Source: Ralstonia sp. TCR112 (GTDB taxonomy: Bacteria; Pseudomonadota; Gammaproteobacteria; Burkholderiales; Burkholderiaceae). Taken from it: a stretch of DNA of 36,800 nucleotides. The position numbers and the translations under genes are program-made. The notes under the pieces were generated by a model. That model ran no database searches. It was not told the DNA's origin and saw only the letters and a list, made by a program, of their open reading frames with translations. Positions within the stretch are counted from its first letter, which is position 1; each line of letters begins with the position of its first letter. The stretch covers positions 1 through 36,800 of the forward strand of contig NZ_VOSS01000114.1 of NCBI RefSeq assembly GCF_007997035.1. The letters run 5' to 3'. Positions 12,054 through 26,076 of the stretch are shown piece by piece.

Positions 12054-13259
12054 TCAGAGAATGTCGTCCAGCAGGTCGGGGCCGAACACTTCGCGGTGGA
12101 TACGCTCCGACGGCACGCCGCTGGCGAGCAGCGCAGCACGCTGTGCCTGCATGAACGGCAGCGGGCCGCAGAGATAGAAGTCCGCTTCCGTCGCGTTGTC
12201 GCGCACGAACGTGTCCACCGTCATGCGGCCGGGCCGTGCGGGGCGCGATGCGAATTCCGCGGCTTCGCCGGATTCCAGGAACACATGCGCCTCGAATGCC
12301 GGCAGCGCCTGGGCCGCACGCTCCAGATCGTCGACGTGAGCAACATGCGAGGCGGCGCGCGCGGCGTGGCTGAACACGATCTTGCGTGCGCTGTTCTCCT
12401 GCGCGAGCGTGTTGAGCGCCGAGATCATGGGCGTGATGCCGACACCCGCCGACATCAGCACGATCGGGTTGTCGGTCGCCAGTTGCGGCACAAAGTCGCC
12501 GTAGGGCTGGCTGACCAGCAGGACGTCGCCTTCGCGCGCATTGGCATGCAGCCAGCTCGACACGGTGCCCGCCGGGCGGTCAACGTCACCCGCATCACGC
12601 TTGACCGAGATGCGCCATGTGCGGCCATTCGGCGCGTCCGACAGGCTGTACTGGCGCTGCTGCAGCGCGCCCGGCGCCAGCTCCACCTGCACCGAGATGT
12701 ACTGCCCCGGCAGGAAATCGGCCAGCGGCGCATCGCCCACGGCTTCGAGCGTGAGCGACACCACGTCTTCGGCCTGCTGACGGCGGCTGACAATGCGCAC
12801 CGGCTGGCGATGGTCGGGGCCGCTGCCGGTGTGCTGGTACAGACGCGCTTCAGCGGCGATCAGCTCGGCGGCGAGCAGCCAGTAGGCTTCGTCCCAGGCG
12901 GCAAGCAGGTCGGGCGTGGCAGCATCGCCCAGCACTTCGGCAATGGCACCCAGCAGGTGGCGCGCGACGATCGGATAGTGGCTCGGCTTGATACCGACAG
13001 CGGCGTGCTTATGCACGATACGGTTGACCACAGGTGCCAGCGCCGCGTTGTTGCCATGGTTGGCGGCATACGCAAACACCGCCGAAGCCAGCGACTGCTG
13101 CTGCGACCCGTTGGCCTGGTTGCCCATGTTGAACACGTTCGTCAGCTCGGGGTGGCTGGCGAACATGTTGCGATAGAAGGTCTGCGTGATGGTCAAGCCA
13201 TGCTCGCGCAGCACTGGAACGCTGGCATCGATATAGGGCTTGGACTTGTCGGACAGCAT
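12054..13259 (-). CDS. hmp: Flavohaemoprotein, nitric oxide dioxygenase
   Basis: 401-aa Hmp that oxidises NO to nitrate using O2 and NAD(P)H. The start at 13259 (MLSDKSKPYIDASVPVLREH) follows GGAG by 6 bp and matches family openings. The globin domain (1-140) shows the distal Tyr29 and Gln53, proximal His85 and Tyr95 at the E. coli numbering. The FAD domain contains the RQYSLSD motif. The NAD domain contains GVGITPMISAL and the C-terminal FYLCGPLPFM and VFGPDLL. It is co-transcribed with nnrS. A promoter and NsrR-like site lie about 105-140 bp upstream, beyond a G12 tract in the leader. Confidence 0.95.
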   Translation of the reverse strand: MLSDKSKPYIDASVPVLREHGLTITQTFYRNMFASHPELTNVFNMGNQANGSQQQSLASAVFAYAANHGNNAALAPVVNRIVHKHAAVGIKPSHYPIVARHLLGAIAEVLGDAATPDLLAAWDEAYWLLAAELIAAEARLYQHTGSGPDHRQPVRIVSRRQQAEDVVSLTLEAVGDAPLADFLPGQYISVQVELAPGALQQRQYSLSDAPNGRTWRISVKRDAGDVDRPAGTVSSWLHANAREGDVLLVSQPYGDFVPQLATDNPIVLMSAGVGITPMISALNTLAQENSARKIVFSHAARAASHVAHVDDLERAAQALPAFEAHVFLESGEAAEFASRPARPGRMTVDTFVRDNATEADFYLCGPLPFMQAQRAALLASGVPSERIHREVFGPDLLDDIL

Positions 13260-13300
13260 GCTGGACTCCAAATATGCGTGAAATATGCAACAAATAAGAC

Positions 13301-13366: not shown

Positions 13367-13398
13367 ATTCTATTAAACGTATATTTGCGATGCAACAA
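13367..13398 (-). promoter_or_regulatory. hmp promoter overlapped by candidate NsrR site
   Basis: On the minus strand, TTGCAT (13395-13390) and TAGAAT (13372-13367) are 17 bp apart and make a good sigma-70 promoter for hmp. The imperfect dyad at 13376-13398 (AACGTATATTT, g, CGATGCAACAA) fits the 11-1-11 layout of NsrR operators, about 14 of 22 positions by my count. It covers the -35 box and spacer, as expected for repression relieved by NO. Confidence 0.6.
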
Positions 13399-13495: not shown

Positions 13496-13975
13496 ATGCG
13501 ACTGACCGACTACACCGACTACGCCCTGCGCACGCTGATCTACGTGGCCGTGCACCCGGACGAGCTCGTCACGATCCAGCGCATTGCGGATGCCTTCGAC
13601 ATTCCCAAGAACCACCTCATCAAGATCGTCCAGCAGCTTGGTCAGGACGGCTTCCTGCATACCGTGCGAGGGCGCTCGGGCGGCATCACGCTGGGCCGCC
13701 CGGCGGCCGAAATCAACCTCGGCGACGTGGTGCGCGCCACCGAACCCGACTTCCGCATGGTCGAGTGCTTCCACGGCGACGACAACCATTGCGTCATCAC
13801 GCGCGTGTGCGGCCTGCGCGGCGTGCTGCACGCGGCGTTGCGGGCGTACTTCGAGGTGCTCGATGGCTACACGCTGCAGGATCTGGTCGACAAACCCAAC
13901 GCGGTCAGTCGCGCATTGGGAGAGGCGCCACTGCCGATGCCGCGTGCTGCCCGGCGCAAAAGCGTAGCAGCGTAA
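13496..13975 (+). CDS. nsrR: Rrf2-family NO-sensing repressor NsrR
   Basis: 159-aa iron-sulfur regulator. The N-terminal winged helix is seen as MRLTDYTDYALRTLIYVAVH and IQRIADAFDIPKNHLIKIVQ. The three cluster cysteines are C91, C99 and C105, within ECFHGDDNHCVITRVCGLRG. NO destroys the cluster and releases DNA. The start at 13496 gives the invariant MRLTxYTDYALR opening. It is divergent from hmp-nnrS, a classic arrangement. The C-terminal 20 residues are basic and low complexity. Confidence 0.94.
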   Translation: MRLTDYTDYALRTLIYVAVHPDELVTIQRIADAFDIPKNHLIKIVQQLGQDGFLHTVRGRSGGITLGRPAAEINLGDVVRATEPDFRMVECFHGDDNHCVITRVCGLRGVLHAALRAYFEVLDGYTLQDLVDKPNAVSRALGEAPLPMPRAARRKSVAA

Positions 13976-24330: not shown

Positions 24331-24456
24331 CGGCCAATCCTTGTTGTTGTAGGGATGGGGGCGAGGCGCATCGCTTGCGCTGTGTGACGCCGCCGTCAGC
24401 CGCCATTGAAGCACCGGCCGGCGGCCTTGTCAGGCGAAGTCCGTGCGCGGCCCCGG

Positions 24457-24494
24457 AAAAAACAAAGCCCGCGCAGCTTTTCAACTGCGCGGGC
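24457..24494 (-). terminator. Leftward intrinsic terminator 1
   Basis: Stem GCCCGCGCAG / CTGCGCGGGC (24467-24476 and 24485-24494), loop of 8. On the minus strand it is followed by TTTGTTTTTT. No gene on that strand lies immediately before it. Confidence 0.85.
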
Positions 24495-24568
24495 CTTGAG
24501 CGATTCCCCCAACCTTTTGAGCTTCCGGCGCCGTGTCGACGGCGTCGGGATGGAGGAAATCGTGCCCG

Positions 24569-24599
24569 AAAAAAATGAAGCCCGCAACAGGGGCGGGCT
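24569..24599 (-). terminator. Leftward intrinsic terminator 2
   Basis: Stem AGCCCGC / GCGGGCT (24579-24585 and 24593-24599), then T7 on the minus strand (A7 at 24569-24575). Ends candidate RNA B. Confidence 0.85.
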
Positions 24600-24700
24600 C
24601 AAAAGGGGGGGAGTGCTCTCTAAAGAGAGAGCAAGGTGAAGTTTAGTGAAGGGAGGGCAGTCAGACTGTCCGGGGTTGGCCGAAAGGCTTGTAGGACAAA
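24569..24700 (-). ncRNA. Candidate small RNA B (C-rich, two hairpins)
   Basis: A minus-strand transcript ending at terminator 2 would carry a strong hairpin, TGCTCTCT-cttt-AGAGAGCA (24633-24614), then a single-stranded C7 run, then the terminator hairpin. Upstream it contains GCCCUCCC, an anti-Shine-Dalgarno-like stretch. A weak promoter (TTGTGT at 24733-24728, TATCGT at 24711-24706, 16-bp spacer) would start it near 24700, giving about 130 nt. No protein reading in the region looks genuine. The 5' end is uncertain and RNA B might be processed from a longer transcript. Confidence 0.5.
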
Positions 24701-24974
24701 AACTGACGATATTTCGCGATGTTAGCCACACAAAGCAGGCGGTTGCGCGCACATTCGCGGCGTCGGCGTGATTCAAACAGCGCTTCGATTCTTTTCCGCC
24801 GACATGCGCGTCAGTCATTGAAGTGAGGCTCGAAGCGCACGATTGAAAATTCCTCGCTCGTTGCTAGCGGGCAACGCCGCCAAGCAAAACGCGCAGAAAA
24901 ATTGAGAATTCAGGGTAGCCGGAACCGGCTGAGATGCAAGGCGACCAGAAGAACAGCAAAAGCCGCGCGCCAAA
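24701..24974. other. Intergenic stretch without a recognised gene
   Basis: Between the two candidate small RNAs. It is moderately AT-rich compared with the flanks. I see no credible coding frame, only the weak promoter-like sequences for RNA B at its left end. Confidence 0.4.
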
Positions 24975-25036
24975 GAAAAAAGCCCGAGCACCAGGTGCTC
25001 GGGCCACAATCCACCAAGGAGGGTGGAGGAGACAGT
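24975..25036 (-). ncRNA. Candidate small RNA A with anti-Shine-Dalgarno hairpin loop
   Basis: Compact unit on the minus strand. The promoter is at 25041-25069; a start near 25036 gives about 62 nt ending in the U-run of terminator 3. After a short leader containing CUCCUCC, hairpin 1 is CCACC-CUCCUU-GGUGG (25026-25011), placing CUCCUU, the complement of AAGGAG, in the loop. Hairpin 2 is the terminator. There is no start codon with a reading frame of note. C-rich loops that pair with ribosome-binding sites are a known design of trans-acting small RNAs in bacteria. I do not recognise a named family. It is 200 bp beyond the metQ stop and independent of it. Confidence 0.72.
24976..25004 (-). terminator. 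Leftward intrinsic terminator 3
   Basis: Stem GCCCGAGCACC / GGTGCTCGGGC (24982-24992 and 24994-25004), effectively a 9-bp stem with a tight CCAGG loop. U6 follows on the minus strand. It ends candidate RNA A. Confidence 0.9.
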
Positions 25037-25040
25037 TCCT

Positions 25041-25069
25041 ACTATAGCGAATCGTTTGTTGCGTTGCAA
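25041..25069 (-). promoter_or_regulatory. Promoter of candidate small RNA A
   Basis: On the minus strand: -35 TTGCAA (25069-25064), exactly 17 bp spacer, -10 TATAGT (25046-25041, 5/6). It is one of the best sigma-70 promoters in the window and has no protein gene downstream. Confidence 0.75.
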
Positions 25070-25123
25070 TAACGTAGAACTACTTAATGTAACGAGAGGC
25101 TACAAGCGTTGCCGCGGCGCCAC

Positions 25124-25153
25124 GTGTGACGAAAACGATTGCATCTGTCACAC
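25124..25153. repeat. Inverted repeat between metQ and RNA A
   Basis: GTGTGAC (25124-25130) and GTCACAC (25147-25153), 16 bp apart. Not a terminator (no T-run), and the spacing is wrong for a CRP site. Possibly regulatory for RNA A or part of the metQ 3' region. The remaining 25070-25269 sequence shows no gene. Confidence 0.4.
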
Positions 25154-25269
25154 GATGACGCATCGCAACAAAACGCTGTGGCACAGCGGAAACCCGCTCC
25201 GGCTTCCGAGATGCCACACTTCAACATCGACGCATCCGCGAAAGTAACCGCTGACTTAGCGTCCGCTGC

Positions 25270-26076
25270 TTAAAACGCCGGCAGGATCGCGCCCTTGAAC
25301 TGCGTGTCGATGAACTTGCGCACGTCTTCCGATTGATAGGCGTGCACCAGCGTCTTCACCCACGGCTGGTTCTTATCTTTTTCGCGCACGGCGATCAGGT
25401 TGGCGTAGGGCCCCTGGCGATCTTCCAGTGCGATGGCGTCCTTGGCCGGCGTCAGGCCGTTCTTGACCGCGTAGTCGGTGTTGATCGAAGCGGCGTCCAG
25501 ATCATCCAGCGAGCGCGGCAGCTGCGCCGAATCCAGCTCGATCAGCTTGATCTTCTTCGGGTTCTCCACCACGTCACGCGGTGTCGCATTGTTGCCGTTC
25601 GCGCCGGCGCCGGCCTTGAGCTTGATCACGCCCGCCTTCTGCAACAGAAGCAGCGCGCGGTTGCCGTTGGACGGATCGTTCTGGATGCCGACCTTGGCGC
25701 CTTCCTTGAGCTGCGCGAGCGACTTGATCTTCTTCGAGTAAAAACCCATCGGCGCCACGTAGGTCAGGCCCACATTGACGATCTTGTAGCCGCGCGCCTT
25801 GATCTGGCTGTCGAGGAAGGGCTGATGCTGGAAGCCGTTGGCGTCCAGGTCGCCCGAATCGAGCGCGGGGTTAGGCTGGGCGTAATCGTTGAACTCGATG
25901 ATCTTGACGTCCAGGCCGTCCTTCTTGGCGACCTTCTGCACGACTTCCCAGATTTGCGCATCGGGGCCGCTCATGGTGCCGAGCTTGATCTGCTTGGTGT
26001 CGGCGTTGGCGGCAGTGGCAACGGCAAAGGCAATGGCCGGTACGGCCACGCGCGCAAGGCGGGAAAACAGAGACAT
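25270..26076 (-). CDS. metQ: MetQ/NlpA-family methionine-binding protein
   Basis: 268 aa periplasmic solute-binding protein for methionine-type ABC import. The signal peptide MSLFSRLARVAVPAIAFAVA is followed by a probable cleavage after ANA. There is no lipobox cysteine, so it is predicted to be a free periplasmic protein, unlike E. coli MetQ. Family motifs: IKLGTMSGPDAQIWEVVQKV, IIEFNDYAQPNPALDSGDLD, FQHQPFLD, and VGIQNDPSNGNRALLLLQKA. No metN (ATPase) or metI (permease) gene is adjacent, so its partners must be elsewhere. It lies downstream of kdpD on the same strand, with a GC hairpin (26113-26129) between them. Confidence 0.9.
   Translation of the reverse strand: MSLFSRLARVAVPAIAFAVATAANADTKQIKLGTMSGPDAQIWEVVQKVAKKDGLDVKIIEFNDYAQPNPALDSGDLDANGFQHQPFLDSQIKARGYKIVNVGLTYVAPMGFYSKKIKSLAQLKEGAKVGIQNDPSNGNRALLLLQKAGVIKLKAGAGANGNNATPRDVVENPKKIKLIELDSAQLPRSLDDLDAASINTDYAVKNGLTPAKDAIALEDRQGPYANLIAVREKDKNQPWVKTLVHAYQSEDVRKFIDTQFKGAILPAF

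Follow-up and report, generated by a model that had tools for sequence, protein, structure and literature searches.

A small RNA (sRNA) of the Rfam family RF02278 is encoded on the minus strand, at 24974 to 25034, of a 36,800 nt stretch of the Ralstonia sp. TCR112 genome (contig NZ_VOSS01000114.1, positions 1 to 36,800; hereafter the window), and this RNA is probably controlled by PhaR, the regulator that binds polyhydroxybutyrate (PHB) granules. We give this reading a probability of roughly 0.7. With Rfam cmscan the RNA scores 54.9 bits (E 1.6e-8) against a gathering score of 50, and the match covers all 64 model positions (1–64), by which it is a Ralstonia member of the family named ‘Betaproteobacteria toxic sRNA’. 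RF02278 comprises double-hairpin RNAs of Burkholderia and kin of the Bordetella RNA S17. A preliminary description of the window, written from the letters alone, proposed a compact sRNA at this place yet recognized no named family, which was wrong; it also missed that the -35 hexamer appears to belong to a palindromic, operator-like site. With its family already described, the sRNA is not in itself news; what is new is the proposal for its regulator, which can be tested.

Reading along the minus strand, a sigma-70-type promoter (25041–25069) is formed by a -35 hexamer TTGCAA (25069–25064), a 17 nt spacer and a -10 hexamer TATAGT (25046–25041). Both hexamers are found in 16/16 aligned orthologues, and this promoter is the only sigma-70-like site in 24400–25300, where shuffled sequences average 0.1. 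Downstream of the promoter pair stand CUGUCUCCUCCACCCUCCUUGGUGGAUU and then the terminator. The predicted 5' end is at about 25035 and the RNA begins CUGUCUCC, a single-stranded segment (25028–25035) that is complementary to GGAGACA leaders and by position equals Site 1 of S17. The first hairpin (25010–25027) consists of the stem UCCACC/GGUGGA (25027–25022 and 25015–25010) and the loop CUCCUU (25021–25016), while the second is an intrinsic terminator (24975–25005) with an 11-pair stem (25005–24981) and a U-rich tail. Folding and changes on both sides of base pairs in the family alignment support both hairpins, and a terminator scan identifies the second as well. The fold of 25040–24970 reaches -32.1 kcal/mol (z -3.69), with equal or better stability in 1/200 shuffles. 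Promoter, 17 bp spacing, CU-rich 5' end, CUCCUU-loop hairpin and terminator were thus rightly described as one compact layout, on the evidence of sequence, fold and promoter scan. Open reading frames overlap the sRNA stretch, for example 24815–25069 on the minus and 25023–25247 on the plus strand; the absence of a protein-coding gene here is stated because of the Rfam match and the RNA-like conservation alone, and not from a coding test of these frames.

An ungapped comparison of 16 orthologues (the window and loci L038–L052) showed that the RNA is nearly invariant, with 29/30 invariant columns in the 5' (hairpin) half and 27/31 in the terminator half, so that loop and stem are conserved in relatives, contrary to the lack of conservation that the preliminary description had named as a refutation. 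Blocks farther upstream have mean identities of 0.49 to 0.70, figures which gaps push down in a comparison of this kind. In an alignment of 48 hand-chosen family members, which leans towards the Rfam model because they were found with it, both-sided changes occur at 7 of 12 consensus pairs, spread over both hairpins, and the 5'-end segment GTCTCCTC is identical in 48/48. The Rfam match, the conservation and the covariation together rule out a chance hairpin or a mere terminator.

RF02278 matches at E <= 0.001 are present in the window’s genome and in 15/15 genus relatives searched, with two or three in each. The window’s genome contains two copies over the cut-off, the second (L001, contig G000:C269) being the stronger at 71.7 bits. 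Its remaining matches all score 29 bits or less and were dropped as members, since 11 of 14 control genomes also match at that E limit, with none over the cut-off. Of 300 genomes drawn from the order, 188 had a match at E <= 0.001 and 114 had one over the cut-off, as opposed to 0/14 control genomes. A 28 nt pattern from the 5' half of the window RNA was located on 12 contigs in the named genome collection, nine from Ralstonia, two from Burkholderiaceae and one from Caldimonas. Nine RF02278 matches, L220 and L221 among them, were seen within a single genome (G031:C1), and one pair is separated by about 380 nt.

The -35 hexamer of the window copy is overlapped by a putative PhaR box, TTATTGCAACGCAACAA (25056–25072, minus strand), with 16/17 columns invariant in the 16 orthologues. 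It has one mismatch to the consensus YTKNTGCRNYGCANMAR determined for R. eutropha PhaR, whose authors accept up to three mismatches for phasin genes (PMC12849132); the box of paralogue L001 has two mismatches. For PhbF, the PhaR of Herbaspirillum, the footprinted site contains TG[N]TGC[N]3GCAA (PMC3206438). A PhaR gene is present in the window’s genome (PF07879, E 9.7e-32, G000:C279). Promoters of RF02278 members from other genera have a TTGC-RNY-GCA palindrome in common, near the -35 or, where the leader is longer, farther upstream. The box overlaps the -35 in short-leader copies, and in many copies it is found 60–140 nt upstream of the mature RNA. The pattern TTGC[AG]N[CT]GCA was present in 23 of 44 loci (46 were given and two dropped for lack of an anchor), with none in the reversed control, none downstream and 0/352 in distant windows; because it was noticed by eye in these same loci, the count is not independent.

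The same core occurs in 13/13 Ralstonia loci of the phasin gene phaP1, at 130–134 nt before the ATG, and the window’s genome has two boxes there. Of 30 phasin loci, 18 have the motif, searched in one orientation, no more than 200 nt from the chosen ATG, namely the 13 Ralstonia phaP1-type loci L100–L112, together with L113–L117. Under that orientation and distance it was not found at the remaining 12 (L118–L129), which include the second, weaker Ralstonia phasin. Boxes in the opposite orientation can be seen by eye at L118 and L121.

We then set the presence of the box against the presence of PhaR at 123 RF02278 sites over the cut-off, among the matches listed, in 96 genomes, of which 70 encode PF07879 and 26 lack it, scanning 150 nt upstream. 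Left out of the 123 were the orthologues of the 15 genus relatives, sub-threshold loci (L035–L037 and others) and further listed over-cut-off copies, mostly of multi-copy genomes. As an orientation check, TCTCC stands at the 5' end in 121/123 sites. At up to three mismatches the box was found at 82/92 sites in PhaR genomes versus 3/31 in PhaR-less genomes, compared to 235/1126 background windows of the same loci; at up to two mismatches the numbers were 63/92 and 3/31. Counted by genome at up to three mismatches, 67/70 with PhaR and 3/26 without carry the box. Background windows split by PhaR state gave 202/911 with and 33/215 without, and dinucleotide shuffles of the upstream stretches gave 404/1840 and 100/620; therefore, base composition does not explain the association. 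These counts draw on a consensus from the work of other groups, and some of the sites are new: among the 80 sites fetched after the motif had been noticed, the box is present in 46/54 with PhaR and 2/26 without. When sites are grouped into units of family and PhaR state, most sites have the box in 14/15 units with PhaR and 2/10 without. A clear contrast was seen within one genus (g113), with one versus five mismatches. Taken as sequence matches, boxes in the RF02278 family mostly appear to follow the presence of PhaR, which makes the question of the regulator directly testable. Some members without the box (L034, L067 and L085) have a different promoter palindrome in common, of the ATTAGA-AAAT-CTAATAAC kind, possibly for another regulator.

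Under PhaR control the window RNA would link carbon storage to translation. Without PHB, PhaR would sit on the box and block RNA polymerase, as the sequence association suggests. With carbon in excess, PHB granules would form, bind PhaR and titrate it off the promoter, in keeping with published PhaR biology, and the sRNA would be made. Judging from published relatives, its UGUCUCC and CUCCUU segments may then bind mRNA leaders of the GGAGACA or AAGGAG type in competition with the tail of the 16S rRNA. The affected mRNAs would be mainly those of uptake and catabolic genes, and full stores would reduce intake.

Several points weigh against this reading. PhaR control of the window copy, including binding, transcript and targets, is predicted from sequence alone, and a lone box is weak: up to one mismatch, the consensus occurs at 141 places in the genome versus 78 for the reversed consensus. 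Ten of the 92 sites whose genomes encode PhaR lack a box at three mismatches, including both PhaR-positive f43 sites. Three of the 31 PhaR-less sites do have one, although one of these is in an 85%-complete assembly with PhaR in a congener and another box is 135 nt upstream. The sites are kin by descent, and since families f50 and f43 supply 17 of the 31 PhaR-less sites, the latter do not amount to 31 independent events; the P values calculated for the association take no account of descent. Contrasts within a genus are few; that in g19 is partial (one and three versus five mismatches), and that in g49 goes the opposite way, PhaR having not been found in an 85%-complete assembly with a 1-mismatch box. 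PhaR can also activate, as at phaP3 in R. eutropha (PMC12849132).

Of the alternatives, the one that survives best, though still unlikely, is that the sRNA is an ordinary member of RF02278: either another regulator, which disappeared along with PhaR, binds its promoter palindrome, or the TTGC core is no more than a conserved variant of the -35. The presence of box and PhaR alike does follow descent (families f50, f43, f15 and f33), and short-leader copies have the box overlapping the -35. However, the match is to a PhaR consensus determined by others, the same core occurs in phaP1 promoters, many copies have the box far upstream of the mature RNA, and g113 differs within one genus. We consider it improbable that PhaR acts on this promoter as an activator, with the sRNA being made when PHB is absent. 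The activation of phaP3 would agree with this, as would the increase of relatives’ RNAs on starvation (PMC5688073), yet the window box covers the -35, which is the position of a repressor, and the rise of up to 8-fold in glucose medium (PMC5688073) fits derepression.

The gene nearest upstream raises the question of a processed transcript. A metQ-like gene (NlpA lipoprotein, PF03180; 25270–26076, minus strand) ends upstream of the RNA, its stop codon lying 235 nt away, and a gene of this kind is found 223–236 nt upstream in 15/16 orthologous loci, having been missed in L043 by the search pattern used. The shared strand and conserved arrangement would suit a window RNA that is the processed 3' end of the metQ transcript. 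We hold this to be very improbable, as a promoter-like pair stands at the right distance, is the only such site in the stretch and is nearly invariant in the 16 orthologues while the DNA farther upstream is not (with the above caution on gaps); metQ is taken here as a neighbour by position. Hardly any weight is left for a growth-inhibiting RNA of toxin-antitoxin type, despite the family name and the statement in PMC4603805 and PMC7011215 that cloned members inhibit E. coli growth, as the window RNA is chromosomal, nearly invariant and in 16/16 genomes of the genus.

The pattern GGAGACA-N1..6-ATG occurs 129 times in the window’s genome versus 13 times for the reversed pattern; these numbers count pattern matches, which are not targets as such, and the 5' segment could have many partners. 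Predicted pairing of the window RNA with phaP1 amounts to about -23 kcal/mol, which 0 or 1 of 300 simple shuffles equalled in each of four genomes. Compared with 81 gene-start-like sequences of the genome, many of which are spurious frames, phaP1 was equalled by two for duplex energy, three for the 5' strand alone and one for net co-folding, phaP1 having been picked after looking. We regard phaP1 as a lead for a target of the sRNA. Pairing with the neighbouring metQ is unsupported, at -10.9 kcal/mol with 44/300 shuffles as good.

Published work on relatives supports the suggestion in the preliminary description that the anti-Shine-Dalgarno segments of a compact sRNA could act on many ribosome-binding sites (RBS) (PMC5688073, PMC11722255). 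In B. cenocepacia four RF02278 members (ncS03, ncS05, ncS27 and ncS62) are expressed, and the three that were measured by quantitative PCR are all raised in biofilm, in starvation and, by up to 8-fold, in glucose medium. Overexpression of ncS27 slows growth and silencing speeds it, and the predicted targets, with pairing mostly placed at the RBS, are genes of transport and metabolism (PMC5688073). The RNA ncS35 was rejected as a counterpart, being a different RNA of 166 nt without an Rfam entry in the table of that article. S17 of B. pertussis interacts with Hfq, and 91 or 92 genes (the text gives both) rise without it, 70 of them carrying a complementary stretch close to the RBS. S17 represses translation of a sigma-54 activator gene through pairing of its CU-rich 5' segment with the leader; this repression was lost and, with compensatory changes in that segment, regained, whereas two other candidate targets showed no effect; the tested repression is carried by the 5' single strand (Site 1) and not by the first hairpin loop (Site 2). 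No growth inhibition was seen for S17S in exponential phase (PMC11722255).

A wider proposal, to which we lean only slightly, is that throughout the Burkholderiales PHB granules control a multi-copy anti-Shine-Dalgarno sRNA family through PhaR titration, such that the carbon store sets translation of uptake genes and perhaps of the phasin PhaP1. A literature search found no link between PhaR and RF02278, with most subscription journals and supplements outside its scope, and this is no proof of absence from print. The terms PHB, PhaR and polyhydroxy have zero occurrences in the main texts of PMC5688073 and PMC11722255. The former calls the regulator of sRNA accumulation in B. cenocepacia unknown, while the latter postulates an unidentified repressor of the S17 promoter. 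If true, PhaR control would answer what regulates the double-hairpin RNAs, and one RNA layer would tie carbon storage to nutrient uptake in many environmental, plant-associated and bioplastic-making bacteria.

Further elements were noted in the window and its genome. A perfect palindrome, GTAGTTCTAC (25074–25083, minus strand), adjoins the PhaR box and is conserved in the 16 orthologues. A wider regulon of palindrome plus box was discarded, as a 23 nt pattern at up to three mismatches occurs only at the window’s own place in the genome, and a search with box plus TATADT likewise returned only that place. Two more terminator-like hairpins (24463–24498 and 24578–24600, minus strand) lie downstream of the sRNA and before an EAL-domain response regulator gene. 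Another PhaR-box-like site with one mismatch, TATTTGCGATGCAACAA (13382–13398), is situated between a flavohaemoglobin-like gene (12054–13271, minus strand), which has globin, FAD and NAD domains, and the gene for a regulator of the Rrf2 family (13496–13975, plus strand), although half of such sites may be chance at this stringency. Elsewhere in the genome, locus L240 holds PhaR-like boxes with zero and one mismatches, 65 nt apart (1501–1517 and 1566–1582; G000:C1:38952 and 39017); some 320 nt downstream of them begins a gene for a periplasmic binding protein of the kind that takes branched-chain amino acids.

Among known systems, the four B. cenocepacia RNAs are alike in Rfam family, in their two hairpins and CU-rich unpaired segments, and in having multiple copies per genome, and they are short independent transcripts, as is predicted for the window copy (PMC5688073). 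Three of them have a common upstream motif, according to the mention of Fig. S3 in that article. In contrast, the window’s genome has two copies over the cut-off and a Ralstonia-specific upstream palindrome, and the window copy is known as sequence. S17 shares the 5' segment, and its -35, TTGCAT (that hexamer alone having been seen), resembles the TTGCAT-TGCA boxes of other members. S17 differs in being a 190 nt precursor that RNase E cuts to 67 nt (PMC11722255), whereas the window copy seems to be transcribed directly as a short RNA. Paralogue L001 looks closer to S17: its TATAAT stands some 60 nt ahead of the conserved 5' segment, and the box follows the TATAAT, as if the RNA were made long and processed. 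The NmsR sRNAs of Neisseria meningitidis, as told in PMC5688073, also have two unpaired, CU-rich stretches that could base-pair with the RBS regions of metabolic genes, but they are a tandem pair with tricarboxylic acid cycle targets, and the likeness drawn here is one of description. The PhaR/PhbF regulon of R. eutropha and Herbaspirillum has the same operator consensus, positioned over or near a sigma-70 promoter, yet its reported targets are PHB genes and phasins, with no sRNA named in the text available of the two articles (PMC12849132, PMC3206438). A parallel in regulation is MmgR of Sinorhizobium meliloti, as told in PMC12542648, an sRNA whose promoter holds a PhaR site; PhaR (AniA) represses it, and it is linked to PHB. 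MmgR is an alphaproteobacterial RNA with phasin targets, and it is a precedent for PhaR control of an sRNA.
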